DNA of 64,000 nt, from contig JBDWKL010000012.1 of the NCBI GenBank assembly GCA_039973685.1, positions 62,001-126,000 of the forward strand. The letters are read 5' to 3'. Position 1 is the first letter of the stretch. Every line of letters starts with the position of its first letter. This DNA comes from Hyphomicrobiales bacterium (GTDB lineage: Bacteria; Pseudomonadota; Alphaproteobacteria; Rhizobiales; JACESI01). Positions 11,202-26,168 of the stretch are shown in pieces. A model generated the notes under the pieces. That model saw only the letters and a program-made list of their open reading frames with translations. It did no database searches and was not told where the DNA came from. Both the position numbers and the translations under genes were made by a program.

Positions 11202-14200
11202 ATGCCAAACGTATCTAAGCCCTTTCCAAAACGTGACGAAAAATCCGCGCTAAAGTACCTTTTAAAGAAAAGCACCATTAGTGATGATCTTCGAGATCGC
11301 ATTACCACCAGAGCGATTGAGCTGGTGGAGCGCATTCGCGAAGATAGCCGTCCCGGTATCATGGAGCTGTTTCTGGGTGAGTATGGCCTATCCAGTGATG
11401 AAGGCATTGCGCTTATGTGTTTGGCGGAAGCGCTTTTGCGTGTGCCAGATGGCGCAACGATGGACGCCCTCATTGAAGATAAAATCGCGCCGAGTGCGTG
11501 GGGTCATCACCTCGGTCAATCCCATTCTTCGCTGGTCAATGCTTCCACATGGGCGCTTTATGTCACGGGCAAAGTGCTCAACGACAAAGAAGAAAGCTCT
11601 ATCGCGAAAACTCTACACGGTGCCGTAAAGCGATTGGGTGAACCCGTCATCCGTCAGGCCGTCACCCGTGTGATGAAAGAAATGGGTCGCCAGTTTGTGT
11701 TGGGCGAAACAATCGAAAAGGCCATTAAGCGGGCAGAGGAAAAAGAGCAAGAAGGCTTTACTTATTCCTACGATATGCTCGGCGAAGCAGCTTGCACCGA
11801 CCGTGATGCCCGTCGTTTTCACCTTGCGTATTCTGATGCGATTGGTGAAATTGCGAAGTCTGCAAAATCAGATGACATTCGCGAAAACCCTGGCATCTCG
11901 ATTAAACTATCCGCCCTTCATCCGCGCTATGAAACCATGAACCATAAGCGAGTGATGGAAGAACTGGCCCCTCGTGCCCGCTCCCTTGCTGTGCTCGCTA
12001 AATCGGCGGGCATCGGCCTCAACATAGATGCGGAAGAAGCAGGCCGTTTGGAAATCTCGATTGATGTGATCGAGGCGATTTTCGCGGATCCCGTGTTCAA
12101 CGGCTGGGATGGTTTCGGCGTGGTGGTGCAAGCCTATAGCAAAGCCGCCCCTCATGTGCTCGACAGGCTCTACAAAATGGCTGAAAAATATGATCGCCGC
12201 ATCATGGTGCGTTTGGTGAAGGGTGCTTATTGGGATACGGAAATCAAGCACGCGCAAGTGGAAGGGCATTCAGATTTTCCTGTTTACACCCGCAAGTCGG
12301 CAACCGATGTGAGCTATATTTGTTGCGCCCAAAAATTGCTTGGCATGACCGACCGTATCTACCCACAATTTGCAACACATAACGCGCATACAGTCGCAGC
12401 GATTTTGGAAATGGCCGACGATAAAACAGCCTTTGAATTTCAGCGCCTTCACGGCATGGGCGAAGCCTTGCACGACACTGTGCTTCGTCGCCAAAAAACC
12501 CGTTGCCGGATTTACGCGCCCGTTGGTGCTCACCGTGATTTGCTGGCCTACCTCGTGCGCCGACTTTTGGAAAATGGTGCAAACTCATCCTTCGTCAATC
12601 AGATTGTTGATGAGAATGTGCCAGCAAGTGACGTAGCCGCTGACCCGTTTGCACATGTCTTGCCTATTCTTAGCGACCCACACAATCCAATCATCAAAAA
12701 GCCAGCTGACCTATTCCAACCGTCTCGAGAAAATTCGATGGGCTTCGATCTCGAAGATCCAGAGACGCTCGCTACATTAGACAAAGCAATTTCGAAATTT
12801 CACAAGAAAACTTGGAGCTTTGAGAATGGGTCTGGTGAATGGATAACAATTAGCAATCCCGCCACTGGAACAGAAACGGGCCAAGTGCGGTTTGCTTCTA
12901 TGCAGGATGTTCAACAATCCTGCCAAGATATTGCACCATGGCAGACAAGCTCGCCAAAGGTCCGAGCAGATATTTTACGCAAGATTGCTGACCTTTATGA
13001 AGCCAATGCCCATGAAATATTTGCACTCCTTATGCGTGAAGCAGGTAAGACCTTGCTTGATTGTGTTGGTGAGCTGCGTGAGGCCGTAGACTTCCTTCGC
13101 TTTTATGCAGCAGAAGGCGAAAAGAAAGATGAGCAAGCCGTCGGCGTGTTCACCTGTATTGCGCCGTGGAACTTTCCGCTCGCTATTTATACCGGACAAA
13201 TTGCAGCGGCCCTTGCAGCAGGCAATGGGGTTTTGAGTAAGCCCGCAGAAGCAACGCCGCTGATTGCAAGTTTCGCCACCGAACTCATGTGGCAAGCAGG
13301 TGTGCCGCGCGATGTTTTGAAACTCATTGTAGGTCATGGCCATGATGTTGGGTCCGCTCTCGTTGCCAATTCAAAAGTGGATGGTGTGTGCTTTACAGGG
13401 TCAACGGCAACAGCCAAGCGCATTGATCAAACGATGGCGGCAAACTTAAGCCCCGCAGCACCCCTGATTGCGGAAACGGGCGGGCTTAATGCCATGATCG
13501 TCGATAGCACCGCCTTGCCAGAACAAGCCGTAAAAGACGTGGTCGCCTCCGCTTTCCAATCAGCGGGGCAACGCTGTAGCGCGCTTCGCGTTCTTTATCT
13601 GCAAGAGGATATTGCGGACGGTTTCCTCACCATGCTGTTTGGTGCAATGGACGAGCTAAAACTCGGTGATCCAACCGCATTTGAAACAGACATTGGTCCC
13701 GTCATTGATGAGAAAGCGGCGAGCAAAATTAGAAATCACATTGAGACTGCCCGCAATCAAGGGCGCATCTTGAAGGAAGTTTCTGCGCCCGAACAATCCC
13801 AGTTCATTCCACCAACTGTTTTGCAGGTTGGAAGCATTAGCGACTTAGCAGAAGAAATTTTCGGCCCTGTGCTTCACATCGCAACTTACAAGGCGAGTGA
13901 GTTGGACGCCGTGATTGATGCCATCAACGCGACAGGCTTCGGCCTTACCTTCGGGCTGCACAGCCGGATTGACGATCGCGTGCAGCACATTATTGACCGC
14001 GTGGAAGCGGGTAATCTTTATATCAACAGAAACCAAATCGGCGCAGTCGTCGGGTCTCAGCCCTTTGGTGGCGAAGGCTTGAGCGGCACAGGCCCGAAAG
14101 CGGGCGGTCCGCGTTATTTAAATCGGTTCTTAGAGCAAAGCTCTGCCCGCACTTTAGAGGCAACAAGACAGGAATTACCCGGACCAACAGGTGAATCCAA

Positions 14201-14543
14201 CCAATACAGTCTCAAACCGCGTGGTCGTGTTGCCTGCCTTGGCCCAACCCCAGAAATGGCTCAAGAGCAAAAACGCAAGGCTGAAGCAATCGGCTGTGAG
14301 GCTGTCGTGATCAATGTGGATGCGCTCTCTCAGGATAATAATGTGGATGCCGTGATAAGCTGGAGCAGCAAGGTTGATGAACTAACTGCCATCCGCCAAG
14401 CGCTTGCAGCGCGTGATGGCAAGATTGTCTGGCTTTTGACGAATGTAGATTTTGAAGAATGGTTATTCGTCGAGCGCCACGTTTGTATTGATACAACAGC
14501 GGCTGGTGGTAATGCAGCATTGCTCGGCGGTGAGGCTGCTTAG
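11202..14543 (+). CDS. putA: Bifunctional proline dehydrogenase / P5C dehydrogenase
   Basis: A 1113-residue PutA oxidising proline to glutamate. The proline dehydrogenase TIM barrel (about residues 160-480) shows NPGISIKLSALHPRYE, LNIDAEEAGRLEIS, MVRLVKGAYWDTEIK and ATHNAHTVAA. The aldehyde dehydrogenase domain (about 560-1000) shows CIAPWNFPLAIYTGQ, VCFTGSTATAKRI, AETGGLNAMIVDS and the catalytic Cys in SAGQRCSALRVL near residue 792. The last 110 residues are a divergent tail. There is no N-terminal ribbon-helix-helix repressor domain of the E. coli type, consistent with regulation by the adjacent Lrp protein. A Shine-Dalgarno TAGGAGA precedes the ATG, and a terminator follows at 14601-14628. 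Confidence 0.96.
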   Translation: MPNVSKPFPKRDEKSALKYLLKKSTISDDLRDRITTRAIELVERIREDSRPGIMELFLGEYGLSSDEGIALMCLAEALLRVPDGATMDALIEDKIAPSAWGHHLGQSHSSLVNASTWALYVTGKVLNDKEESSIAKTLHGAVKRLGEPVIRQAVTRVMKEMGRQFVLGETIEKAIKRAEEKEQEGFTYSYDMLGEAACTDRDARRFHLAYSDAIGEIAKSAKSDDIRENPGISIKLSALHPRYETMNHKRVMEELAPRARSLAVLAKSAGIGLNIDAEEAGRLEISIDVIEAIFADPVFNGWDGFGVVVQAYSKAAPHVLDRLYKMAEKYDRRIMVRLVKGAYWDTEIKHAQVEGHSDFPVYTRKSATDVSYICCAQKLLGMTDRIYPQFATHNAHTVAAILEMADDKTAFEFQRLHGMGEALHDTVLRRQKTRCRIYAPVGAHRDLLAYLVRRLLENGANSSFVNQIVDENVPASDVAADPFAHVLPILSDPHNPIIKKPADLFQPSRENSMGFDLEDPETLATLDKAISKFHKKTWSFENGSGEWITISNPATGTETGQVRFASMQDVQQSCQDIAPWQTSSPKVRADILRKIADLYEANAHEIFALLMREAGKTLLDCVGELREAVDFLRFYAAEGEKKDEQAVGVFTCIAPWNFPLAIYTGQIAAALAAGNGVLSKPAEATPLIASFATELMWQAGVPRDVLKLIVGHGHDVGSALVANSKVDGVCFTGSTATAKRIDQTMAANLSPAAPLIAETGGLNAMIVDSTALPEQAVKDVVASAFQSAGQRCSALRVLYLQEDIADGFLTMLFGAMDELKLGDPTAFETDIGPVIDEKAASKIRNHIETARNQGRILKEVSAPEQSQFIPPTVLQVGSISDLAEEIFGPVLHIATYKASELDAVIDAINATGFGLTFGLHSRIDDRVQHIIDRVEAGNLYINRNQIGAVVGSQPFGGEGLSGTGPKAGGPRYLNRFLEQSSARTLEATRQELPGPTGESNQYSLKPRGRVACLGPTPEMAQEQKRKAEAIGCEAVVINVDALSQDNNVDAVISWSSKVDELTAIRQALAARDGKIVWLLTNVDFEEWLFVERHVCIDTTAAGGNAALLGGEAA

Positions 14544-14776: not shown

Positions 14777-16009
14777 ATGAGCGATGCGTCAACAACTTCT
14801 AAAACTGTCATCATTGCGGGAGGCGGGCAAGCTGGCTTTTCTTGTGCTTCCAAACTGCGCGAATTTGGCTTTGAAGGCCGCATTGTTATGGTGGCAGAAG
14901 AGAGCCAAGCGCCTTATCAACGCCCGCCATTGTCAAAAACCTACATGACAGGCGAGATGACTTTGGAGCGGATTTTGTTGCGCCCGAATTCATTTTATGA
15001 AGAAAAATCGATTGAGCTGTTAAACGATACGCTGATTGATAGCATCGACACTGACCAGCAAACCGCAACGCTGAGCAATGGCGATGTGCTCTCCTATGAT
15101 AAATTGGTTCTAGCAACCGGCGCCCGCCCGCGCACCTTGCCCGAGGCGATTGGTGGGGAGCTCAACGGCGTGTTGACCATGCGTACCTTAAATGATGCTG
15201 ACCGCATGGCGCCTGAACTTAAAGAAGGCCGCCGCCTGCTGGTGATCGGTGGTGGATATATCGGGCTTGAAGCCGCAGCGGTTGCGCGCAAGTTGGGACT
15301 CGATGTCACCGTAGTTGAAGCAGCTGACCGGATTTTGAAACGGGTCGCCTCTCCAGAAACATCAAACTATTTCCGCGATCTCCATGTCAAAAATGGCGTG
15401 ACCATCTTGGAAGATACAGCGCTTGAATGCCTGCTTGAAAAAGACGGCCATGTGGCAGGTGCAAAACTTCAAAACGGTGATGAGATTGCCGCTGATATTG
15501 CAATTGTCGGGATTGGTGTATTGCCCAATCAAGAAATTGCCGAAGCGGCAGGTATCACCGTTGATAATGGTATTGTTGTCAACGAACATGGCGAGACGAA
15601 TAACGCGAATATTTACGCCATTGGTGACTGTGCTTCTATCCTGCACAAAGATACGAGAATTCGTCTTGAGAGTGTTGGCCATGCGATTGATCATGCCATT
15701 CTTGTTGCTAAAAACATCTGCGGCCAATCAGAAACTTATTTGGCAAAACCGTGGTTTTGGTCAGATCAATATGCGACCAAGCTACAAATTGCAGGCCTCA
15801 ATCTTGGCTATGATGATGTGGTGATCCGAGAACTTGGTGAGGGCTCGCAATCTATTTGGTATTTTAGCGGCGATACGTTGTTGGCCGTCGATGCAATGAA
15901 TGCGCCGCGTGACTATCTGGTGTCTAAACGTATGATTGAGGCAGGGAAATCGCCAAGCAAAGCAGAAGTCTCTGATCCCAATACTGATTTGAAGGCCTTG
16001 TTGAAATAA
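14777..16009 (+). CDS. NAD(P)/FAD-dependent oxidoreductase, ferredoxin-reductase type
   Basis: A 410-residue pyridine-nucleotide disulfide-type flavoprotein of the ferredoxin/rubredoxin/putidaredoxin reductase branch. The FAD site is VIIAGGGQAGFSCASKL at residue 11, AYQRPPLSK-type segment APYQRPPLSK follows, and KLVLATGARPRTLP marks the first domain. The NAD(P) site is LLVIGGGYIGLEAAAVA (about residue 155), the second FAD motif is NIYAIGDCAS (about residue 283), and a C-terminal reductase domain begins at WFWSDQY. It would pass electrons from NADH to a ferredoxin, P450 or Rieske oxygenase partner, none of which is adjacent. It lies alone between the putA terminator and the pca operon. Confidence 0.85.
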   Translation: MSDASTTSKTVIIAGGGQAGFSCASKLREFGFEGRIVMVAEESQAPYQRPPLSKTYMTGEMTLERILLRPNSFYEEKSIELLNDTLIDSIDTDQQTATLSNGDVLSYDKLVLATGARPRTLPEAIGGELNGVLTMRTLNDADRMAPELKEGRRLLVIGGGYIGLEAAAVARKLGLDVTVVEAADRILKRVASPETSNYFRDLHVKNGVTILEDTALECLLEKDGHVAGAKLQNGDEIAADIAIVGIGVLPNQEIAEAAGITVDNGIVVNEHGETNNANIYAIGDCASILHKDTRIRLESVGHAIDHAILVAKNICGQSETYLAKPWFWSDQYATKLQIAGLNLGYDDVVIRELGEGSQSIWYFSGDTLLAVDAMNAPRDYLVSKRMIEAGKSPSKAEVSDPNTDLKALLK

Positions 16010-16103: not shown

Positions 16104-17291
16104 ATGACCAAGAGACACAAAACCAAAGTTGGTATTGTGGGCGCTGGCCCCGCAGGTTTGTTGCTCTCTAAATTATTGGCAAATGCTGGCATTGAAAGCA
16201 TTATTGTCGACCGCCAAGACCGTGCTTACATCGAAGGCCGCATTCGCGCTGGCGTCTTGGAATGGGGAAGCGTTGAAGCCATTCGCGAAGCTGGCATTGG
16301 CGAGCGCATGGATCGCGAGGGTCTGCCCCATGATGGTTTTGATATGTGCTTTGATGGCGAGCTTCACCGTATCGACTTAAAGGGTTTGACCGATCAAAAA
16401 GTCATGGTCTATGGCCAGACTGAAATCACCAAAGACTTATTTGAAGCCCATGCCAAACATGGAACAGAATTGGTTTTTTCTGCGGAAGAAACTGAGATCG
16501 TGGATGCAAAGAGCGACCATCCTATCATTCGTTTCAAAAAAGATGGCGAGCTGCATGAAATCGAATGCGATTATGTGGCGGGCTGCGATGGTTTCCATGG
16601 GGCCTCACGAAAGACGATCCCTGCCGATGTCCTGAAAACTTTTGAGCGGATTTATCCGTTTGGTTGGCTCGGCATTTTGGTTGATCAACCGCCCGTTTCA
16701 GATGAATTGATCTATTCAAACCACGCGCGCGGGTTTGCTCTTTGCTCTATGCGATCAGCAAGCCGCAGCCGCTATTACATTCAGTGCGACATGTCTGAGA
16801 AGGCTGAAGACTGGTCAGACGAACGCTTCTTTGATGAGTTAGAAAAAAGGCTTGGTGCGGAGTTGGGTGGCCTTATTAAACGTGGTCCTTCGATTGAAAA
16901 GAGCATTGCGCCGCTTCGCTCCTTTGTGGCGGAACCTATGCGGTACGGTAATTTATTTTTAGCAGGAGACGCCGCCCACATTGTGCCACCAACAGGGGCA
17001 AAGGGTTTGAACCTAGCCATCGCTGATGTGCGCTTGCTCTCTCACGCCTTGGACGAGAAATTTAACAAGAATAATACAGCTTATATCGACAGTTATTCCC
17101 AGCGTTGTTTAAGCCGTGTTTGGAAAGTGGAGCGCTTTTCGTGGTATATGTCCACCATGCTGCACCAGTTCCCAGAACACAGTCCTTTTGAAAAAAGGAT
17201 GCAACGTGCTGAATTTGATTATATCGTCCAATCTGAAGCCGCTTCACGTACTATTGCGGAAAATTATGTTGGACTACCTTTGGAGTTTTAG
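16104..17291 (+). CDS. pobA: 4-hydroxybenzoate 3-monooxygenase
   Basis: A 395-residue class A flavoprotein hydroxylase converting 4-hydroxybenzoate to protocatechuate with NADPH and O2. Visible are the GxGxxG dinucleotide site VGIVGAGPAGLLLSKLL (residues 9-25), the RIRAGVLEWGSVE segment typical of PobA, the DG motif in GCDGFHGASR, and the second FAD motif GDAAHIVPPTGAKGLNLAIAD. Length is as expected for the family. It starts the pca operon: pcaD begins six bases after its stop. No pobR regulator lies next to it, which is unusual because pobA is often divergent from an AraC- or IclR-type gene. Confidence 0.95.
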   Translation: MTKRHKTKVGIVGAGPAGLLLSKLLANAGIESIIVDRQDRAYIEGRIRAGVLEWGSVEAIREAGIGERMDREGLPHDGFDMCFDGELHRIDLKGLTDQKVMVYGQTEITKDLFEAHAKHGTELVFSAEETEIVDAKSDHPIIRFKKDGELHEIECDYVAGCDGFHGASRKTIPADVLKTFERIYPFGWLGILVDQPPVSDELIYSNHARGFALCSMRSASRSRYYIQCDMSEKAEDWSDERFFDELEKRLGAELGGLIKRGPSIEKSIAPLRSFVAEPMRYGNLFLAGDAAHIVPPTGAKGLNLAIADVRLLSHALDEKFNKNNTAYIDSYSQRCLSRVWKVERFSWYMSTMLHQFPEHSPFEKRMQRAEFDYIVQSEAASRTIAENYVGLPLEF

Positions 17292-17297
17292 AAGACC

Positions 17298-18095
17298 ATG
17301 CAATTTGCCAAAATCAACAATGTTAATCTGCACTACCAAGTCATCGGTGCGCCTGAGGGTAAGCCGGTTTTGGTGTTTTCCAATTCGCTTGGAACGGATT
17401 TTCGAATTTGGCGCGATGTGATTGTGCGCATGGTCGGTGATTTTGCCATTGTCGTCTATGACAAACGCGGTCACGGCCTCAGCGATGCACCGGCGGCCCC
17501 TTACCGCATGGCTGATCACATTGCTGATCTTGCGGGCCTGCTCGATCATCTTGAGGTAAAAGACGCGCTTGTCTGCGGCTTGTCTGTTGGTGGCATGATT
17601 GCACAAGGTTTAGCATTAGGACGGCCTGATCTTGTGAAGGCATTGGTTCTTTGTGATACGGGTCATAAAATCGGTACAGAAGCCCTTTGGAATGAACGGA
17701 TCGGTATCGTTGAAAAGAACGGCATTGAATCAATCGCTGAAAACATCATGACCCGCTGGTTCTCGCAAGAATATCGTACGCCGGACAATCCAGAATTCAT
17801 GGGCTACCGCAACATGCTGACCCGCACGCCTTTGCAAGGCTATATCGGCACCTCATGCGCCATCCGCGATGCAGATTATACCCAGCAAGTGCCCACTATA
17901 GATGTTCCAACATTGTGTATTGTCGGCAGCGAAGATGGCTCGACACCACCAGAGCTGGTGAGCGAACTATCAAGCCTTATCCCGGGCGCCTTGTTTGAAA
18001 TGATCGACGGCGCGGGGCATCTTCCTTGCATTGAGAAGCCAGAAGAATTCTCAAATCTGGTGCAGCCATTTTTAAAGAAAGTAGCCTCTGAATGA
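17298..18095 (+). CDS. pcaD: 3-oxoadipate enol-lactonase
   Basis: A 265-residue alpha/beta hydrolase hydrolysing beta-ketoadipate enol-lactone to beta-ketoadipate. The nucleophile elbow is CGLSVGGMIAQ (Ser96). DKRGHGLSDAP gives the oxyanion-side segment, and the acid and His are in the DGSTPPE and DGAGHLPCIEKPEEF regions. The stop overlaps the next start as ATGA, so translation is coupled with pcaC. In many rhizobia the order is likewise pcaD-C-H-G-B. Confidence 0.94.
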   Translation: MQFAKINNVNLHYQVIGAPEGKPVLVFSNSLGTDFRIWRDVIVRMVGDFAIVVYDKRGHGLSDAPAAPYRMADHIADLAGLLDHLEVKDALVCGLSVGGMIAQGLALGRPDLVKALVLCDTGHKIGTEALWNERIGIVEKNGIESIAENIMTRWFSQEYRTPDNPEFMGYRNMLTRTPLQGYIGTSCAIRDADYTQQVPTIDVPTLCIVGSEDGSTPPELVSELSSLIPGALFEMIDGAGHLPCIEKPEEFSNLVQPFLKKVASE

Positions 18096-18478
18096 GTGAA
18101 CGTTTTGATCAAGGCATGAAGGCCCGTCGCTCTGTTTTGGGCGACGAACATGTGGATCGTGCTGAGGCAAACAAGACGCCGTTTGACCAACCGTTTCAAG
18201 AGATGATCACGGAAGGCGCTTGGGGTCATGTTTGGTCTGGTGATCAACTGACCAACCGTGAACGCTCAATCGTCACCATCGCCCTGCTCGCAGCCCTTGG
18301 CCATGACGAAGAAGTTGCCATGCATGTCCGTGCGACTCGCAACACGGGCGCAAGCATGGAGGATATCCGCGAAGCACTGATGCATGTGGCCATCTACGCA
18401 GGTGTACCAGCAGCTAATCATGCAATCAAAATTGCCAAGCAAACTTATGCTGAAATGGATCAAGAGACATCCTCATGA
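18092..18478 (+). CDS. pcaC: 4-carboxymuconolactone decarboxylase
   Basis: A 128-residue AhpD-like all-helical protein, the normal length for a stand-alone PcaC. It decarboxylates gamma-carboxymuconolactone to the enol-lactone used by PcaD. Characteristic segments are GDEHVDRAEANKTPFDQPFQ, WGHVWS, LTNRERSIVTIALLAALG and the HVRATRNTGASMEDIREA helix. It overlaps pcaD by 4 bases upstream and pcaH by 4 bases downstream (both ATGA). Confidence 0.94.
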   Translation: MSERFDQGMKARRSVLGDEHVDRAEANKTPFDQPFQEMITEGAWGHVWSGDQLTNRERSIVTIALLAALGHDEEVAMHVRATRNTGASMEDIREALMHVAIYAGVPAANHAIKIAKQTYAEMDQETSS

Positions 18479-19197
18479 GTGATGCATTTTACCCAAGAGA
18501 TTTGAATTGGCATCCAGCTCCCTATTCACCGAAATATAAATCAACCGCCCTTCGTTCACCGCGCAAACCTTTGCTGGCATTCCCAAACACGCTGACTGAA
18601 AAGAGCGGGCCTGTGTTCGGCCATGATTTGATTGGTGAGGGTGACAATGATCTTGTCCATAATTATGCCAAGGCTGGCGAGAGCGCTATCGGCCCTCGCA
18701 TCATGGTGCATGGGCAAATTTTGGATGAAAACGCAAAGCCCGTTCCCAATGCATTGATTGAGGTTTGGCAGGCCAATGCAGGTGGTCGTTATCGTCATAA
18801 AAATGATAGCTATCTAGCAGCCCTCGATCCAAATTTTGCAGGATGCGGTCGCACCATGAGCGACGCCGAAGGGCGGTATTCGTTCTTTACCGTGCAGCCT
18901 GCCGCCTACCCTTGGCCAAACAGTGAAAACGCGTGGCGGCCAGAGCATATTCACTTCTCACTTTTTGGCTCTGGCTTTGCTCAACGCCTGATTACGCAAA
19001 TGTATTTTGAAGGCGATCCCCTGATTGCCCTTTGTCCCATTGTGCAATCTTTGAGCGATCCAAAAGCCGTTGATCAACTGGTTGCTAAGCTCGATATGGA
19101 TGCTGCCCACACGATGGATCGATTAGCCTATCGTTTTGATATTATCCTGCGTGGTCGCAACTCAACGATGTTTGAAAACAAGCCGGAGGGTAATTGA
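18475..19197 (+). CDS. pcaH: Protocatechuate 3,4-dioxygenase, beta subunit
   Basis: The 240-residue iron-binding subunit of the intradiol dioxygenase that cleaves protocatechuate to 3-carboxy-cis,cis-muconate. Fe(III) ligands can be read directly: Tyr106 in GRYRHKN, Tyr145 in AAYPWPNS, and His158 and His160 in PEHIHFSLFG. The N-terminal extension (FYPRDLNWHPAP) is typical of beta subunits. It overlaps pcaC by 4 bases, and pcaG starts after one intervening base. A 28-base stretch (18754-18781) is identical to part of pcaG. Confidence 0.96.
   Translation: MSDAFYPRDLNWHPAPYSPKYKSTALRSPRKPLLAFPNTLTEKSGPVFGHDLIGEGDNDLVHNYAKAGESAIGPRIMVHGQILDENAKPVPNALIEVWQANAGGRYRHKNDSYLAALDPNFAGCGRTMSDAEGRYSFFTVQPAAYPWPNSENAWRPEHIHFSLFGSGFAQRLITQMYFEGDPLIALCPIVQSLSDPKAVDQLVAKLDMDAAHTMDRLAYRFDIILRGRNSTMFENKPEGN
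18754..18781 (+). repeat. 28-base exact repeat, copy in pcaH (mate at 19406-19433)
   Basis: The stretch coding for LIEVWQANA is identical base for base in pcaH and pcaG over 28 positions, although the two genes are only distantly related overall. The mate is 652 bases downstream in the same orientation. A deletion between the two copies would fuse the subunits in frame. Confidence 0.85.
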
Positions 19198-19198
19198 T

Positions 19199-19768
19199 AT
19201 GCTCAAGAACCTTCCCCACAAAGAAAGCCCATCACAAACCTGCGGCCCCTATGTGCACATTGGGTTGACGCCAAACTTAGTTGATATCAATGGCGTCATT
19301 GACCACGACCTTGGAACGTCCATGATAACCGACACCACCAAGGGTGAGCGCATCACAGTTAAGGGCCAAGTGTTTTCTGGCGATGGCGCTATCATGCCGG
19401 ATGCTTTGATTGAGGTTTGGCAGGCCAATGCAGATGGCGTTTATGATGGCGATGATTTTAAAGGCTGGGGGCGTCATCCCTGCAATCTTGAAACAGGCGT
19501 TTTTGAGTTTGAAACCATCAAACCCGGTTCTGTCGAAGACCAAGCGCCGCACATCGCCTTTTGGTTGGTTGCGCGCGGCATGGGTATGGGCGTTTCAACA
19601 CGGATGTATTTTCCTGAAGAACAAGCCAATGCAGATGATCCTGTGCTCGCTTTGTTGATGGATGATCCGGCGCGACTTAACACGCTGATTGCCAGAAAAG
19701 ACGGCAGCACCTATCATTTCAATATTGTGGTTCAAGGGGAGAACGAAACTGTCTTCTTCGATATCTGA
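19199..19768 (+). CDS. pcaG: Protocatechuate 3,4-dioxygenase, alpha subunit
   Basis: A 189-residue partner of PcaH. It has the shared intradiol core (TTKGERITVKGQVFSGDG, ALIEVWQANADGVYD, PHIAFWLVARGMG) but lacks the Tyr/Tyr/His/His iron ligand set, as expected for the alpha subunit. The ATG at 19199 is one base after the pcaH stop and has a GGAGG Shine-Dalgarno inside the end of pcaH; the frame open from 19136 is not a real extension. The 28-base repeat at 19406-19433 matches pcaH. Confidence 0.94.
   Translation: MLKNLPHKESPSQTCGPYVHIGLTPNLVDINGVIDHDLGTSMITDTTKGERITVKGQVFSGDGAIMPDALIEVWQANADGVYDGDDFKGWGRHPCNLETGVFEFETIKPGSVEDQAPHIAFWLVARGMGMGVSTRMYFPEEQANADDPVLALLMDDPARLNTLIARKDGSTYHFNIVVQGENETVFFDI
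19406..19433 (+). repeat. 28-base exact repeat, copy in pcaG
   Basis: Second copy of the identical 28-base stretch described in pcaH (18754-18781), same strand and same reading frame relative to the protein. Confidence 0.85.
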
Positions 19769-20603
19769 TCATAAGGGTAAACCCTGCATTTTATGCTGCG
19801 CCATCACAGGCTCTGTTCCGCGCAAGGCGGATAACCCTGCCGTTCCAACCACTGTCAATGAGCAGGTGGAAAGTTCTCAAGAAGCCGTTGAAGCAGGCGC
19901 TTCAATTTTGCATTGTCATGTGCGCAACGATGATGAAACGCCGACCTCTGATCCAGACCGTTTCGCGGCACTCAAAGAGGGCTTAGAGAAACATTGCAAA
20001 GGCGCGATCATTCAGTTTTCAACCGGCGGTCGTTCTGGCTCAGGCCGAGAGCGAGGCGGTATGTTGCCTTTGCGCCCTGATATGGCGTCACTCACTGTGG
20101 GTTCAAACAATTTCCCTGCCCGCGTTTATGAAAACTCGCCAGATCTCGTTGAATGGCTTTCAAGCGAAATGCGGACTTATGATGTGATGCCAGAGATTGA
20201 AGCCTTCGATCTTTCCCACATCATTCAAGCCGTGCGCATGTATGAAGCGGGCAAGTTTCCACGGAAGCTCTATGTTCAGTTCGTCATGGGTGTGAAGAAC
20301 GCCATGCCTGTTGATAAGCATGTGTTTGATTTTTACGTTGAGACCATGAACCGCCTTGCGCCTGATGCACCTTGGTGTGCTGCGGGTATTGGCGCGGGAC
20401 AAGTCGTCGTCAATGAATGGGCAATTGCAAATGGCGGCCATACCCGTGCAGGACTTGAAGACAACGTTCGCCTTGACCGCGAAACGCTCGCGCCATCAAA
20501 TGCAGCACTCATTAAACGAGCCGCTGACCTATGCGAGAAATACGAGCGCCCTATCGCCTCCACCACTGAAGCCCGTGAAATTTTAGGGCTGCGCGCCGCT
20601 TAA
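19689..20603 (+). CDS. Beta-keto acid cleavage enzyme (BKACE, DUF849 family)
   Basis: A roughly 280-300 residue BKACE/3-keto-5-aminohexanoate-cleavage family TIM barrel. Seen are CCAITGSVPRKADNPAVP at the N-terminus, the zinc-binding HCHVRNDD, the FSTGGRSGSG strand, and WCAAGIGAGQVVVNEWAIAN followed by GGHTRAGLEDNVRL. The family condenses a beta-keto acid with acetyl-CoA to give acetoacetate and a new acyl-CoA. In this operon the obvious substrate is beta-ketoadipate, giving succinyl-CoA (inference). The start is unclear: no ATG precedes the conserved region. TTG at 19689 or 19725 and CTG at 19749 are in frame, all within pcaG, so initiation is probably coupled to pcaG translation. Confidence 0.85.
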   Translation: MPEKTAAPIISILWFKGRTKLSSSISDHKGKPCILCCAITGSVPRKADNPAVPTTVNEQVESSQEAVEAGASILHCHVRNDDETPTSDPDRFAALKEGLEKHCKGAIIQFSTGGRSGSGRERGGMLPLRPDMASLTVGSNNFPARVYENSPDLVEWLSSEMRTYDVMPEIEAFDLSHIIQAVRMYEAGKFPRKLYVQFVMGVKNAMPVDKHVFDFYVETMNRLAPDAPWCAAGIGAGQVVVNEWAIANGGHTRAGLEDNVRLDRETLAPSNAALIKRAADLCEKYERPIASTTEAREILGLRAA

Positions 20604-20612
20604 AGGGAAACC

Positions 20613-21677
20613 ATGTCTTATACGCCGTTTAATGCTCCGTTCTTGTCTGGCCTTTTGGGCGACATGGAAATTGCTGGAAGCTTTTCTATTAAAGCAGACC
20701 TTGCAGCCATGTTGCGTTTTGAATTGGCCTTGGCAGAAGCGGAAGCAGAAACGGGCGTTATTCCAGCGGATGCCGTTGCTGCTATTAAACAAGCGATTGA
20801 TAGTTTTGAACCCAATATGCCAGCGCTTGCTGAAGGCAGTGCGCGCGATGGAATGGTCGTGCCAGAACTCATCAGCCAGCTTCGTGCCAGTGTTGATGAA
20901 GCCCATCGCCCACATCTGCATTTTGGCTCCACCAGCCAAGATGTGATTGATACAAGCCTTGCCCTGCGCCTAGCCGATGTGAGCAATGTTTTGGCTGCGC
21001 GGCTTAAAGAGGTGATTTCTCATTTAGAGCGATTGGCCAATCAGTTCGGCGAGAACGCGTTGATGGGCCGCACGCGAATGCAAGCAGCCCTTCCCATGAC
21101 GGTCGCTGATCGGTTGGAACACTGGAAGCGCCCGCTTGAACGGCATTTAATGTTGTTGCCCGAGATCAATTATCAAGCCCTATGCGTGCAGTTTGGTGGG
21201 CCCATTGGAACGCTTGATAAACTAAGTGACAAGGCCGATGCGACCCGTGCAGCTCTCGCTGAAAAACTCGGACTGCGTGACCCCGGTTATTGCTGGCACA
21301 CGGAGCGCATGGGCATTGTTGATTATGCGCAGTGGTTGGCTTTTGTAACCGGATCACTTGGCAAGATGGGTCAAGACATTGTGCTGATGGCTCAAAACGA
21401 ATTGGGTGAATTCCAATTTGAAGGCGCGGGCGGATCATCCGCGATGGCGCACAAGCAAAACCCTGTTAAAGCCGAAGCGCTGGTAACACTCGCCCGCTTT
21501 AACGCCACACTTGCAGGTGGCATGCAACACGCGATGATCCACGAACAAGAACGCTCAGGTGCCGCGTGGACATTTGAATGGATGATGATCCCGCAGTTAT
21601 GCGTGGCAACAGGCGCAAGCCTGCGCAATGCAAGTGCGCTGCTTGAAAGCGCCACCGCTATAGGCACGGCACCTTAA
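20613..21677 (+). CDS. pcaB: 3-carboxy-cis,cis-muconate cycloisomerase
   Basis: A 354-residue fumarase/aspartase superfamily lyase converting 3-carboxymuconate to 4-carboxymuconolactone. Motifs are HFGSTSQDVIDTSLALR, MGRTRMQAALPMTVADR and the signature loop EGAGGSSAMAHKQNPVKAEAL, the GSSxMxxKxNP equivalent. Lengths of 350 to 450 residues are normal. It closes the pca operon, 9 bases after the BKACE gene, and its stop overlaps the end of the convergent soeC by 4 bases. pcaI, pcaJ and pcaF are absent from the window. Confidence 0.95.
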   Translation: MSYTPFNAPFLSGLLGDMEIAGSFSIKADLAAMLRFELALAEAEAETGVIPADAVAAIKQAIDSFEPNMPALAEGSARDGMVVPELISQLRASVDEAHRPHLHFGSTSQDVIDTSLALRLADVSNVLAARLKEVISHLERLANQFGENALMGRTRMQAALPMTVADRLEHWKRPLERHLMLLPEINYQALCVQFGGPIGTLDKLSDKADATRAALAEKLGLRDPGYCWHTERMGIVDYAQWLAFVTGSLGKMGQDIVLMAQNELGEFQFEGAGGSSAMAHKQNPVKAEALVTLARFNATLAGGMQHAMIHEQERSGAAWTFEWMMIPQLCVATGASLRNASALLESATAIGTAP

Positions 21678-22582
21678 TAATAAAGCGATACGGCGTGTTT
21701 TGCTTCGGCGAAAAACAGCCAACGTTCTGCAAACAGACCAGCGATCATAGACAGGAACGCCAGAACCAAGAGGATAGTCGGCGCGCCGATAATCCAGACT
21801 AAGGCCGCGATAATTGCAGGAACCAGACAGCCTAGAACCTTGGCGATCATCCGAAGCTTTTGAGCATGTTTGCGGCCAATTTGGTGGACCATTTCTTTAG
21901 TCAAATAGTTCTCGCCCGTGTGGGGACGCTCCAGCAATTTGACTGAGCCGAGCTCCCCAAGCCCTGTGGCTGTGCCAGTGTCTGAGTTGGTATCAGAAAA
22001 CCCGATAGTGTCAGCCCGTTTCCACCACATATACTTTGCGCACCACGCAAGAATAACAAGGCCAGCAGTAATCATGCCCAAAGCTTCTTTGTTGCCAGTG
22101 GTAAAGGCTGTTGCAAGCAGTAAGCCAGAGGCAAGACCAAAGGCGACATAGCAAAGAGGCGTTAGCCACGTGTTCCAGCTCGGTACTGTTTTAAGCTGCG
22201 CGTAAATCATGGCCGTTGCAAAAATTGTGAGGAGTGCGAGGGCTGCCAACACAAGACCCAACACAAGATGACGCTCGCCATTGAACACCCAATTTGCACC
22301 ATAAAGGGCGAAGACCAGAAGGGTCACAACAGACAAAACACCTTCACGCGAAAGCCATGAAGAGCGCCATTGCGAAAACGCACGCCACGCCCGCTCTGGG
22401 TGGCCTAGGTGAAACGTCGAGGAGATAAGGCCCGCAACGGCAAGGCTTGCTGCCATCACGCAAATCATGAAGGCGAAAACAGGTTCGTCAGGCAAAGGCA
22501 CGCCAAGCCCAAGCATCGCCATCAGCCCAAAGCCAGCACCAGACATGACCGTGAAGAAAATAACGGATACGGCGGGATGCAT
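21674..22582 (-). CDS. soeC: Sulfite dehydrogenase membrane anchor (DmsC-like)
   Basis: A 302-residue integral membrane protein with about eight hydrophobic helices, of the DmsC/anchor type (PAVSVIFFTVMSGAGFGLMA at the start, ISSTFHLGHPERAWRAFSQW, SWLSREGVLSVVTLL). It anchors the molybdoenzyme on the cytoplasmic face and passes electrons to quinone. Its start overlaps the soeB stop by one base. SoeABC is the assigned complex because the catalytic subunit lacks a Tat signal and has the SoeA pattern; a DMSO or other S/N-oxide reductase cannot be fully excluded. Confidence 0.82.
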   Translation of the reverse strand: MHPAVSVIFFTVMSGAGFGLMAMLGLGVPLPDEPVFAFMICVMAASLAVAGLISSTFHLGHPERAWRAFSQWRSSWLSREGVLSVVTLLVFALYGANWVFNGERHLVLGLVLAALALLTIFATAMIYAQLKTVPSWNTWLTPLCYVAFGLASGLLLATAFTTGNKEALGMITAGLVILAWCAKYMWWKRADTIGFSDTNSDTGTATGLGELGSVKLLERPHTGENYLTKEMVHQIGRKHAQKLRMIAKVLGCLVPAIIAALVWIIGAPTILLVLAFLSMIAGLFAERWLFFAEAKHAVSLYY

Positions 22583-23319
22583 TAGAGCGCCTCCAACATT
22601 TTATCGACCCAGCCAAGAAGGCCGCCTTCTGCTTTAACAACAGGGGCAGCTAAAACGGGTGCTTGATCTGGTCGCACTTTTGGCCGTGGTGGCAGGTATT
22701 TGTTGACGGGGTTCGTCCCCATTTCAGGCATCAAATCAAAGCCGCTGCGTTCTCGTGTCATGATGGAGACATCTGAATTCGGGTCAGAAAAATCACCGAA
22801 GTGACGGGCATTGGCAGGGCAGGTACGAACACAGGCCGGAGTGCGGTCTACTTCTTCGAGGTTTTCATTGTAAATGCGATCGACGCAAAGGGTGCACTTC
22901 TTCATCACCTGCTCAACAGGGTCCATCTCGCGGGCGCCATAAGGGCATGACCACGCGCAAAGGCCGCAGCCGATGCATTTGTCTTCTTCAACCAGCACAA
23001 TGCCATCTTCCGAGCGCTTATAACTTGCACCCGTTGGGCAAACTGTCACGCACGGTGCATCATCGCAGTGGAGGCATGATTTTGGGAAATGAACGATAGA
23101 TGCGGGTGCGTCTTCTAGTGTTACTTCAAACGTATGAATGCGGTTAAGCCATGCCCCTGTCGGGTTGCCGCCATAGGGATCTTCATCCGACAAAGGCGCG
23201 CCATAGCCGCCTGTGTTCCACTCTTTGCAATTGACCACGCAGGCATGACAACCAACGCAAACATCAAGATCGATAACAAGACCAAGTTTCTTATTTGTTG
23301 AGGCAGGGAGCGTGGTCAT
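22582..23319 (-). CDS. soeB: Sulfite dehydrogenase iron-sulfur subunit
   Basis: A 245-residue DmsB-like ferredoxin with four [4Fe-4S] binding sets: CVGCHACVVNCKEWN, CLHCDDAPCVTVCPTGA, CIGCGLCAWSCPYGA and CTLC with CVRTCPANA. It wires the Mo-subunit to the membrane anchor. I place the start at the ATG at 23319, whose ATGA overlaps the soeA stop, rather than the GTG at 23328. The C-terminal 50 residues (PPRPKVRPDQAPVL onward) are a proline-rich tail. Confidence 0.86.
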   Translation of the reverse strand: MTTLPASTNKKLGLVIDLDVCVGCHACVVNCKEWNTGGYGAPLSDEDPYGGNPTGAWLNRIHTFEVTLEDAPASIVHFPKSCLHCDDAPCVTVCPTGASYKRSEDGIVLVEEDKCIGCGLCAWSCPYGAREMDPVEQVMKKCTLCVDRIYNENLEEVDRTPACVRTCPANARHFGDFSDPNSDVSIMTRERSGFDLMPEMGTNPVNKYLPPRPKVRPDQAPVLAAPVVKAEGGLLGWVDKMLEAL

Positions 23320-26168
23320 TTCGTCCACTCCTTGCCATAAGACACGGTATCATCGCCGCTGTATCCAGCATTGCCCTGTGCATCAAATTGCGGTTCGGAC
23401 ACTTCGGCTCCTGCTTCCGCTTTTTCGATCTTTACGCGCAAGTCAAACCATGCAGCTTGTCCGGTGATCGGGTCAGAGTTCGACCAGCGAAGCCCGTCGC
23501 CTTTTGGTGGCAATAGCTCGTTGATAAGGTGGTTTAAGAGGAAGCCCTTGGTTGCCTCAGGCGCATCTTTATCAAGGCTCCAAGCACCCTTGCGTTTGCC
23601 AATCGCGTTCCACGTCCACATGGTTTTGCCGTTGACGGCATTCATGCGTTTAACCGGCACTTTGATCTTGCCATGATAAGAGGTGACCCAAGCCCAATCA
23701 CCATCTTCAAGACCTTCTTGGTCACAAATTTCGCCCGGAACATACATCGGGTTATGGCCATGGATTTGACGAAGCCACGCATTTTGTGATCCCCATGAAT
23801 GATACATGGCAGCAGGGCGCTGGGTGAGTGCGTGATAGGGGTATTCTTCTTCACTGATGCCAGTGCCTTCAAACGGCGGATACCAAATTGGCAAGGGATC
23901 AAAACAGGTTTGCACTCGCTCGCGATGGCTCTCAGGTGGTTGCGGTTCCATCTTGCCTTCCGCGCAGAGTTGAAACTTGCGCAGTGGCTCTAGATAAAGC
24001 TGGAACACATTTTCCACGGGACCATCTTGCAGGCCCATCTCGACCGCAAAATCCTGCCAAGCGACATTGGCGTGCTTGTAATAAAGCGCTTCTTTCGGCA
24101 CATGGGTTTCAGAGAAGCCGCCATTTTCTATGTAGCGATTAATTTGATCGGCGTTCGGTTCACCGCGTCCTGTTTGATCACCATTGCCGCGCCATCCAGA
24201 AAGTGGGCCGATGCCCGGTTTGCGTTGGTGGTTGGTGATGTAGTCGGCATAATCTTGATAACGAGCGCTACCATCATCATTGACCATACCGGGCAGGCCA
24301 AGGCGCGCACCCAGATCAAGCAGTACGGATTGGAAACCACGCACATCACGATCTGGCGGAAGCACTGGCCAGCGAATTGCATCACACATGGCCTCTGGTT
24401 CTGAGATCGGGCGATCAAGCAGTGAAATCGCATCGTGACGTTCTAGATAGGTGGTGTCAGGCAAAATCAAATCGGCATAAGCCACCATCTCAGATGAATA
24501 AGCATCGGAATAAATGATCTTCGGGATCACATAATCGCCGTTCTCATCTTTATCGGTTAGCATCTTCATGACGCCCGCCGAATTCATCGACGAGTTCCAC
24601 GACATATTCGCCATATACATGAACAGCACATCAATGCCGTATGGCTCGCGCGCATGAGCGTTTGAAATCACCATATGCATGAGGCCATGGGATGACATGG
24701 GCGCGTCCCACGAAAAAGCGCGGTCAATGCGTTGTGGTGTTACGCCATCCTCTTCAAGCAATAAATCTTCTGGGCCACGCAAGAAACCAAGATGAGGGCC
24801 TGCAAGCGGTGCATCTGGTCTGCACCCACCATGGGGTTTTGGCTGAGCCGCAATTGGCCGTGGATAAGGCGGCTTAAAGCGGAACCCGCCCGGTGCATCA
24901 ATGGAGCCAAGCAGAATTTGCAGCATGTGAATAGAGCGGCAGGTTTGGAAACCGTTGGAATGGGCAGAAATCCCGCGCATGGCATGAAAAGCCACGGGGC
25001 GACCAACCATCTTGTCGTGCTTCTCGCCTTTCATGTCAGTCCATGGCTGATCAACAACCACTTCGCTCTTAAAGGCCGCATCGGCAATTTCTTGTGCCAA
25101 GCGCTTTATCTGATTGGCAGAAACACCCGTGCGCTCAGAGACGTTTTCTGGCGCATATTCATCAGCCAAGTATTTCTCAGCCAACAGTTCAAATGAAGGG
25201 CGTGCGGTTTTGCCTTTGGCAAGTTTTACCTCACCCTTCAAATGTGGCTTCACGTCCTTTTTGTTATAGGCAACCACCTCACCACTATCGCGGTCAAGCA
25301 CAAGCGCGTTGCCGTCTTCGTCGCGGGCAATCAGGCCATGGTCATCCCCATCAGGATTATTGATCACAAGCCACGGCGCGTTGGTGTAGCGAATGAGGTA
25401 ATCCACATCCACGTAACCAGCTTTTAAAAGTTCATGCACCAGCGATAAAACGAACAAGCCGTCTGTGCCAGGTGTGATGGAAACCCATTCGTCTGCAATG
25501 GCGTTATAGCCCGTGCGCACGGGGTTCACGCCGACAATTTTCTTGCCGCGTTCTTTTAGTTTTGAAAGGCCGATTTTAATCGGGTTGGAATCGTGATCTT
25601 CCGCCACGCCAAAGATCATGAAGAATTCAGACTTCTCCCAATCCGGTGCACCAAATTCCCAGAAGGCACCGCCAAAAGTGTAAATGCCACCCGCCGCCAT
25701 ATTGACGGAACAAAACCCACCATGGGCTGCAAAATTTGGCGTGCCATATTGCTGCGCCCACCAGCCCGTGAAAGATTGCGATTGGTCACGGCCTGTGAAG
25801 AATGCAAGACGCTTAGGGTCATCTTTGCGAATGGCAGCAAGCCAATCTTGCGCCATGCCAAGCGCTTCGTCCCATTCGATCTCTTCAAACTTGCCTTCAC
25901 CGCGCTCACCAACCCGCTTCAACGGCTTCTTCAACCGTGAGGGCGCATAATGCTGCATGATGCCCGCAGAACCCTTGGCGCATAAAACACCTTTGTTGAT
26001 CGGGTGATCGCGATTTCCTTCAATGTAGCGAATTTTCGGCTTACCATCCGCACCATTACGCAGGTGAACATTGATGCCGCAACGACACGCACACATATAA
26101 CAAGTGGTCTTACGCACTTCATCTGACACATGAGGTGATTTTTCTAAAATTGGGTCGTTGACCACCAA
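23316..26168 (-). CDS. soeA: Sulfite dehydrogenase molybdopterin catalytic subunit
   Basis: A 950-residue DMSO-reductase-family molybdoenzyme. The N-terminal [4Fe-4S] site is Cys23, Cys26, Cys30 and Cys63 (CYMCACRCG and GVLCAKGSAG). A candidate Mo ligand is Cys153 in HGGFCSVNMAAG. Further cofactor contacts lie in FGVAEDHDSNP, VGVNPVRTGYN, RGISAHSNGFQ and the C-terminal TQRPAAMYHSWGSQNAWLRQ. There is no Tat signal, so it faces the cytoplasm, as known for SoeA of Allochromatium and roseobacters, which oxidises sulfite to sulfate. Initiation is at TTG 26168 or GTG 26165, both after GAAGGAAAG. It is the first gene of soeABC. Confidence 0.84.
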   Translation of the reverse strand: MVVNDPILEKSPHVSDEVRKTTCYMCACRCGINVHLRNGADGKPKIRYIEGNRDHPINKGVLCAKGSAGIMQHYAPSRLKKPLKRVGERGEGKFEEIEWDEALGMAQDWLAAIRKDDPKRLAFFTGRDQSQSFTGWWAQQYGTPNFAAHGGFCSVNMAAGGIYTFGGAFWEFGAPDWEKSEFFMIFGVAEDHDSNPIKIGLSKLKERGKKIVGVNPVRTGYNAIADEWVSITPGTDGLFVLSLVHELLKAGYVDVDYLIRYTNAPWLVINNPDGDDHGLIARDEDGNALVLDRDSGEVVAYNKKDVKPHLKGEVKLAKGKTARPSFELLAEKYLADEYAPENVSERTGVSANQIKRLAQEIADAAFKSEVVVDQPWTDMKGEKHDKMVGRPVAFHAMRGISAHSNGFQTCRSIHMLQILLGSIDAPGGFRFKPPYPRPIAAQPKPHGGCRPDAPLAGPHLGFLRGPEDLLLEEDGVTPQRIDRAFSWDAPMSSHGLMHMVISNAHAREPYGIDVLFMYMANMSWNSSMNSAGVMKMLTDKDENGDYVIPKIIYSDAYSSEMVAYADLILPDTTYLERHDAISLLDRPISEPEAMCDAIRWPVLPPDRDVRGFQSVLLDLGARLGLPGMVNDDGSARYQDYADYITNHQRKPGIGPLSGWRGNGDQTGRGEPNADQINRYIENGGFSETHVPKEALYYKHANVAWQDFAVEMGLQDGPVENVFQLYLEPLRKFQLCAEGKMEPQPPESHRERVQTCFDPLPIWYPPFEGTGISEEEYPYHALTQRPAAMYHSWGSQNAWLRQIHGHNPMYVPGEICDQEGLEDGDWAWVTSYHGKIKVPVKRMNAVNGKTMWTWNAIGKRKGAWSLDKDAPEATKGFLLNHLINELLPPKGDGLRWSNSDPITGQAAWFDLRVKIEKAEAGAEVSEPQFDAQGNAGYSGDDTVSYGKEWTK

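Follow-up and report, generated by a model that had tools for sequence, protein, structure and literature searches.

A BKACE gene in the protocatechuate operon of a Hyphomicrobiales bacterium suggests an acetoacetate ending to its beta-ketoadipate pathway

How does a bacterium finish the degradation of protocatechuate when its operon for this pathway contains a BKACE gene and no pcaI, pcaJ or pcaF is found nearby? The question is raised by a stretch of 64 kb from a Hyphomicrobiales bacterium (C12:62001-126000, here called the window), taken from an assembly of 3.23 Mb in 55 contigs that is listed as 100% complete. In the window the genes pobA-pcaD-pcaC-pcaH-pcaG-BKACE-pcaB occupy positions 16104-21677. 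We propose that the last step of aromatic-acid degradation in this host runs through acetyl-CoA, with the BKACE ending the pathway, and we would put the probability of this mechanism as a whole at roughly 0.82. An earlier note on the window had suggested that the BKACE replaces PcaIJ and PcaF. This is borne out in that the protein passes the family model NF053568, no PcaI-type transferase was found among the family-I CoA-transferases of the genome and enzymes that handle acetoacetate are present. The observation is real and functionally coherent, and the reading given to it is probably correct.

The seven genes, with the scores of their products against curated models, are as follows.

16104..17291, plus strand: pobA, 4-hydroxybenzoate 3-monooxygenase (TIGR02360, 615.6 bits, cut-off 538.7)
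17298..18095, plus strand: pcaD, 3-oxoadipate enol-lactonase, whose product is beta-ketoadipate (TIGR02427, 332.2 bits, cut-off 255.85)
18092..18478, plus strand: pcaC, 4-carboxymuconolactone decarboxylase (TIGR02425, 199.9 bits, cut-off 155.7)
18475..19197, plus strand: pcaH (TIGR02422, 342.9 bits, cut-off 296.4)
19199..19768, plus strand: pcaG, protocatechuate 3,4-dioxygenase alpha, starting at ATG 19199 (TIGR02423, 194.1 bits, cut-off 126.25)
19749..20603 with a proposed CTG start, plus strand: BKACE, predicted 3-oxoadipate:acetyl-CoA acetyltransferase (NF053568, PF05853)
20613..21677, plus strand: pcaB (NF004631, 504.9 bits, cut-off 371; TIGR02426, 368 bits, cut-off 355.75)

The order, the coordinates and the single strand were all confirmed, with PobA, PcaD, PcaC, PcaH, PcaG and PcaB exceeding curated NCBIfam cut-offs and the BKACE passing its own model. 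The overlaps and very short gaps that had been described are also found, the spacings being +6 bases for pobA/pcaD, -4 for pcaD/pcaC, -4 for pcaC/pcaH, +1 for pcaH/pcaG, -20 for pcaG/BKACE (given the CTG start at 19749) and +9 for BKACE/pcaB, and the BKACE may well be co-regulated with the other genes. References for PcaI, PcaJ and PcaF gave no match in the 64 kb at E 1e-4, in agreement with the earlier note, nor did a reference for the regulator PcaQ.

The BKACE scores 468.6 bits against NF053568, the equivalog model for 3-oxoadipate:acetyl-CoA acetyltransferase (cut-off 350), with positions 2-273 of its 274 matched, and 294.6 bits against PF05853 (DUF849; cut-off 24.8). The name given to its predicted activity is the one that the model assigns. 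It shares its family and catalytic positions with the KCE of lysine fermentation, but falls below the cut-off of the KCE model (241.2 bits, cut-off 382). The solved structures closest by sequence are 3chv, 3fa5 and 3no5, and 202 of 274 residues (74%) are identical in 3chv. The equivalents of the Zn-binding and catalytic KCE residues H46, H48, E143, R226 and E230 are all identical in the window protein. The equivalent of KCE E14, which we take to contact the amino group, is a Val. An Arg following the motif STGG is present in the window BKACE and in all three structures and is not found in KCE. A Lys in the motif GVKNAM occurs in the window BKACE, 3chv and 3no5, is an Arg in 3fa5 and has no equivalent in KCE. 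It is a guess that this Arg or this Lys might contact the distal carboxylate of the substrate. Using a constant offset of 28, E143 and R226 of KCE were equated with E171 and R254 of BKACE15, in which E171 is reported to be the catalytic base (PMC11961710).

On the proposed route 4-hydroxybenzoate would be converted to beta-ketoadipate by PobA, PcaGH, PcaB, PcaC and PcaD. The BKACE, as a Zn-dependent TIM-barrel enzyme, would then use acetyl-CoA as the acceptor for the acetyl end of beta-ketoadipate, giving acetoacetate and succinyl-CoA. The acetoacetate would be activated at the expense of succinyl-CoA by a SCOT-type ScoAB, which is encoded outside the operon as the only family-I CoA-transferase of the genome, and the resulting acetoacetyl-CoA would be split into two acetyl-CoA by a thiolase, for example the product of a gene on contig C21. 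The net reaction, from beta-ketoadipate and CoA to succinate and acetyl-CoA, would be identical to the sum of PcaIJ and PcaF, the difference from the canonical ending being that the host has BKACE, SCOT and thiolase instead of any PcaI-type gene that we could find. From the sequence we infer that these are the substrate and products of the window BKACE and that the flux would take this course.

The content of the rest of the genome bears directly on this proposal. PF01144, the family-I CoA-transferase model, detects two adjacent genes only, on contig C43, and this pair exceeds the cut-offs of the joint models for pcaI/scoA and pcaJ/scoB. In a tree limited to A subunits, 24 in all, the C43 protein joins 3cdk and 3rrl, two ScoA structures, and a 100/100 split sets it apart from three PcaI anchors. 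The anchors carry the annotation '3-oxoacid CoA-transferase subunit A'; they are followed by subunit B and pcaF, and on that basis were treated as PcaI. The 55 contigs yielded no transferase of PcaI type in the PF01144 search, other families of CoA-transferase not being searched for. The earlier note had held that a complete pcaIJF elsewhere in the genome would speak against the BKACE ending. Among the family-I transferases no such set appeared, the A subunit present being of SCOT type, but a pcaF-type thiolase is encoded on contig C27. Five thiolase matches occur in the genome. Among the four that were scanned, one on C27 exceeds the cut-off of the pcaF model (658.6 bits, cut-off 597), and the remaining, unscanned match is a fragment where C27 ends. 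The lack of a pcaF-type gene thus applies to the window and not to the genome; as read from translations, the neighbours of the pcaF-type gene resemble a phenylacetate (paa) cluster. For the gene on C21 the model passed is the broad one for acetyl-CoA C-acyltransferase. A search for acetoacetyl-CoA synthetase gave no match above cut-off in the host genome, and the acetoacetate-activating enzyme present is the ScoAB of C43.

The observations that weigh against a BKACE ending begin with this thiolase. As a pcaF-type enzyme exists in the genome, a side activity of ScoAB on beta-ketoadipate followed by the C27 thiolase is conceivable. The canonical ending would then be encoded outside the operon, with the SCOT-like ScoAB activating beta-ketoadipate, a pcaF/paaJ-type thiolase cleaving the product and the BKACE having an accessory role. 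The membership of ScoAB in the joint pcaI/scoA and pcaJ/scoB families fits with this, as does the thiolase score, whereas the position of ScoA in the SCOT clade argues the other way, and so do the three separate contigs that carry scoAB (C43), the thiolase (C27) and the pca operon (C12), and the two genomes described below that have no family-I transferase match. We consider this alternative unlikely.

Mutants of Roseovarius nubinhibens bear on the same choice. Loss of pcaF singly had no visible effect on growth on 4-hydroxybenzoate, which the canonical ending does not favour, and a double mutant in pcaF and an acyltransferase reached a reduced final density, whereas inactivation of the gene assigned as pcaI stopped growth, with consumption of 4-hydroxybenzoate severely repressed though not nil (PMC12442348). 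A dispensable pcaF and an essential assigned pcaI is the pattern that an ending by BKACE and SCOT predicts. We predict that R. nubinhibens carries a BKACE and that its assigned pcaI, ISM_RS03130, is a SCOT; the pairing of BKACE with SCOT as the ending for beta-ketoadipate may explain roseobacter genetics that have been read as thiolase crosstalk. Two points from the same work count on the other side. The authors read the assigned pcaI as canonical and retain a canonical route served by several thiolases, and on 4-hydroxybenzoate the wild type showed a decrease, not an increase, in the acetyl-CoA C-acetyltransferase ISM_RS07170 (PMC12442348).

A BKACE ending is not new in print, having been proposed for Ralstonia eutropha (2019) and for Methylobacterium (2022, 2025) and in part tested by others, and the window operon would be a further example. 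In R. eutropha H16 a COG3246 gene of the catBCD regulon was suggested in 2019 to encode a beta-ketoadipate cleavage enzyme, and homologues were described as frequently lying beside protocatechuate 3,4-dioxygenase genes (PMC6449761). That protein belongs to the same family as the window BKACE, but serves the catechol branch where the window has the protocatechuate one. In Methylobacterium a DUF849 gene lies between pcaG and pcaB in nearly all of the pcaG-bearing strains examined, in an operon without pcaIJF (PMC8963497), and M. extorquens PA1 grew on protocatechuate after receiving the combined set pcaHGBL and kce from M. nodulans, again without pcaIJF (PMC12379598). These clusters are like that of the window in the position of the DUF849/BKACE gene, in having no pcaI, pcaJ or pcaF and in the reaction proposed. 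They differ in that M. nodulans has pcaL, presumably a fused pcaCD, while in the window operon pcaD and pcaC are individual genes and pobA comes first. To the Methylobacterium work the window case adds a search of the whole genome and a named exit for acetoacetate, SCOT. A BKACE has been coupled with acetoacetate activation for deoxyribonate, where in Pseudomonas simiae a thiolase was important and no single activating gene was (PMC6365646), and in a synthetic cycle (PMC11961710). In the parts of the literature available to our search, a BKACE paired with SCOT for beta-ketoadipate was not found. The closest counterpart with a structure is WP_011241826 of Ruegeria pomeroyi DSS-3, which contains the letters of PDB 3chv, is identical at 202 of 274 residues and, like the window BKACE, comes directly after pcaG. 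Its cluster reads pobA-pcaC-pcaH-pcaG-BKACE and, unlike in the window, pcaD and pcaB were not found in the 12.8 kb seen.

Is the BKACE a built-in part of such operons, as had been claimed, or a neighbour by chance? We took the best 80 of 225 relatives in the genome collection, picked on BKACE similarity alone. In 49 of the 80 loci the pcaG match ends 2-105 bases ahead of the BKACE match, four have other pca genes (in L046 and L094 pcaG is more distant), 23 have no pca gene at all in view and in the remaining four the sequence ends within 1.5 kb upstream of the BKACE. pcaB lies directly downstream in 9 of the 49 pcaG-adjacent loci. Transferase or thiolase matches above 150 bits to the Pca references were seen in two of the 80, L050 (PcaF) and L029. 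The latter, a record of an uncultured Rhodobacteraceae (L029:5515-10159), reads pcaD-pcaC-pcaH-pcaG-BKACE-scoA-scoB on one strand, and its transferase pair is identified as ScoAB by the tree and also by its stronger match to the host pair (71% and 79%). In Rhodobacter sp. CZR27 the BKACE stands in a benzoate dioxygenase cluster, benABCD-transporter-pcaD-BKACE, the first benA-like gene being cut. The link common to the pcaG-side and the benzoate/pcaD contexts is therefore the production of beta-ketoadipate. Canonical pcaIJF adjoining pcaDCHG was seen in plasmid records of Phaeobacter piscinae. A separate curiosity is L064, a record titled Oceanobacillus with pcaC-pcaH-pcaG-BKACE, whose BKACE is placed among alphaproteobacterial ones; this is likely a mislabelled or contaminated assembly.

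The nearest relatives of the window BKACE show another picture, and they too count against the proposal. In a tree of 96 sequences, for which the bootstrap had not settled, the window BKACE falls in a clade of seven (99/96), and the loci of the other six members have no pca gene. Five of these, L016-L020 from metagenome-assembled genomes of the Rhizobiaceae group, are 80-86% identical to it and are stand-alone. As read from translations, a comM-like gene (in L019 a fragment) flanks them and, in four of the five, a mutS-like gene lies on the opposite side, which in L018 is out of view. The remaining member, G291, is of the same genus as the host; its BKACE is outside a pca operon and no PcaH match was found in its genome. 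The clade therefore has an additional role, and enzymes of the window type are not confined to pca operons. Thus the claim of a built-in gene stands for the family, with pcaG directly upstream in 49 of 80 loci, and does not extend to the window clade, where the other six of six sampled members are stand-alone. Over the whole tree the label pcaG-adjacent (60 rows, L046 and L094 included) switches 18 times (12 or more by starred branches), so the gene enters and leaves pca operons and serves other purposes besides protocatechuate degradation.

These stand-alone relatives, together with the 23 loci lacking a pca gene and the promiscuity reported for BKACEs (PMC4922564), would suit an enzyme whose substrate is some other cellular beta-keto acid and which merely has a promoter in common with the pca genes. 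The recurrent position directly after pcaG, or after pcaD in the benzoate cluster, and the match to the equivalog NF053568 speak against it, and we regard such an explanation as very unlikely.

If the BKACE replaces PcaIJ, the two might be expected to avoid one another across genomes. A survey of 290 alphaproteobacterial genomes found PcaH in 67 at E <= 1e-60, with 63 above the cut-off, and 12 of the 67 have a BKACE above the NF053568 cut-off, in 8 cases within 2 kb of pcaH. PcaI was called either strictly, by TIGR02429 at 290 bits or more, a threshold picked after the scores were known, or more loosely by also counting PF01144 genes in the vicinity of pcaF or pcaH; the counts were read by hand and the p values are two-sided and uncorrected for kinship. 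By the strict criterion PcaI is present in 2 of the 12 BKACE-positive and 17 of the 55 BKACE-negative genomes (p 0.49), which adds to the case against, and by the looser one in 2 of 12 and 29 of 55 (p 0.028). A simple anti-correlation is thus absent in the first case and moderate in the second, and BKACE and PcaI are not clearly mutually exclusive. PF01144 matches were listed down to about 87 bits, which leaves the third transferase gene of each of G115, G183 and G219 unplaced. Because of the weak anti-correlation and these unplaced genes, more weight is put on the evidence from the single genome, the tree and the operons.

Individual genomes from this survey are informative. Two genomes of a single genus, G098 and G236, combine a BKACE beside pcaH with an acetoacetyl-CoA synthetase (973 and 958 bits) and gave no PF01144 match at E 1e-10, CoA-transferases outside PF01144 not being searched for. 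A PF01144 match is missing from four of the 67 genomes, the other two, G214 and G274, having a PcaH under the cut-off. Both kinds of gene occur in G283, which has two clusters, one of pcaHG with pcaIJ and one of pcaHG with BKACE, and in G263, where PcaI-type genes accompany two BKACEs distant from pcaH. All 12 BKACE-positive genomes have either a SCOT-type gene (nine, placed in the tree) or an acetoacetyl-CoA synthetase (the other three). One or the other is also present in 8 of 10 chosen BKACE-negative genomes (G029 and G043 judged SCOT by score only), so that acetoacetate activation serves as a necessary condition and does not discriminate BKACE genomes.

Where the BKACE starts is uncertain, because the nearest standard in-frame start codons, TTG at 19725 and TTG at 19689, fall inside pcaG. 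Homology begins at 19779 and the region homologous to known starts, 19743-19751, has no ATG, GTG or TTG. The window CTG at 19749 is aligned with the TTG start of the relative L017 and has GGGGAG 7 bases upstream; in L022 the BKACE overlaps pcaG in the identical phase, and its ATG start is ACG in the window. On these grounds we propose CTG 19749, which would likely be the start and would overlap pcaG by 20 bases. The want of a standard start at the homologous position and the change of ATG to ACG could also signal a gene that is unexpressed or decaying. With 274 codons open, the named catalytic positions kept, an intact pcaB following and, besides the CTG and its GGGGAG, TTG codons available further upstream, we think this highly improbable.

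Annotation keyed on pcaIJF would report a gap in the protocatechuate pathway of organisms of this kind. Should the BKACE ending prove as widespread as the loci suggest, carbon ought to be sent via acetoacetate in models of lignin and marine aromatic catabolism, and SCOT or acetoacetyl-CoA synthetase would become essential in them. With such an ending, the roseobacter mutants in the literature could also be interpreted anew, in a way that is open to testing.

The host has a second BKACE, on contig C25 (G000:C25, L011:8489-9397), which at 163.1 bits is below the NF053568 cut-off of 350. One small frame beyond it lies what appears from its translation to be a carnitine-dehydrogenase-like fusion with a thioesterase-like end, and we presume that this BKACE is possibly a dehydrocarnitine cleavage enzyme. 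In the window, a gene for a ferredoxin-NAD reductase-like protein of 410 amino acids (14777-16009, under the HcaD cut-off) lies just upstream of pobA on the same strand, and a bifunctional PutA (NF008869, 1382.9 bits, cut-off 747) is encoded at 11202-14543. Convergent with pcaB are three minus-strand frames (21674-26168) for a DmsC-like anchor, a 4Fe-4S ferredoxin-like subunit and a molybdopterin oxidoreductase-like protein of 950 amino acids, the last scoring 189.5 bits against the PhsA model (cut-off 694). We take this trio to be possibly a sulfite dehydrogenase (SoeABC).

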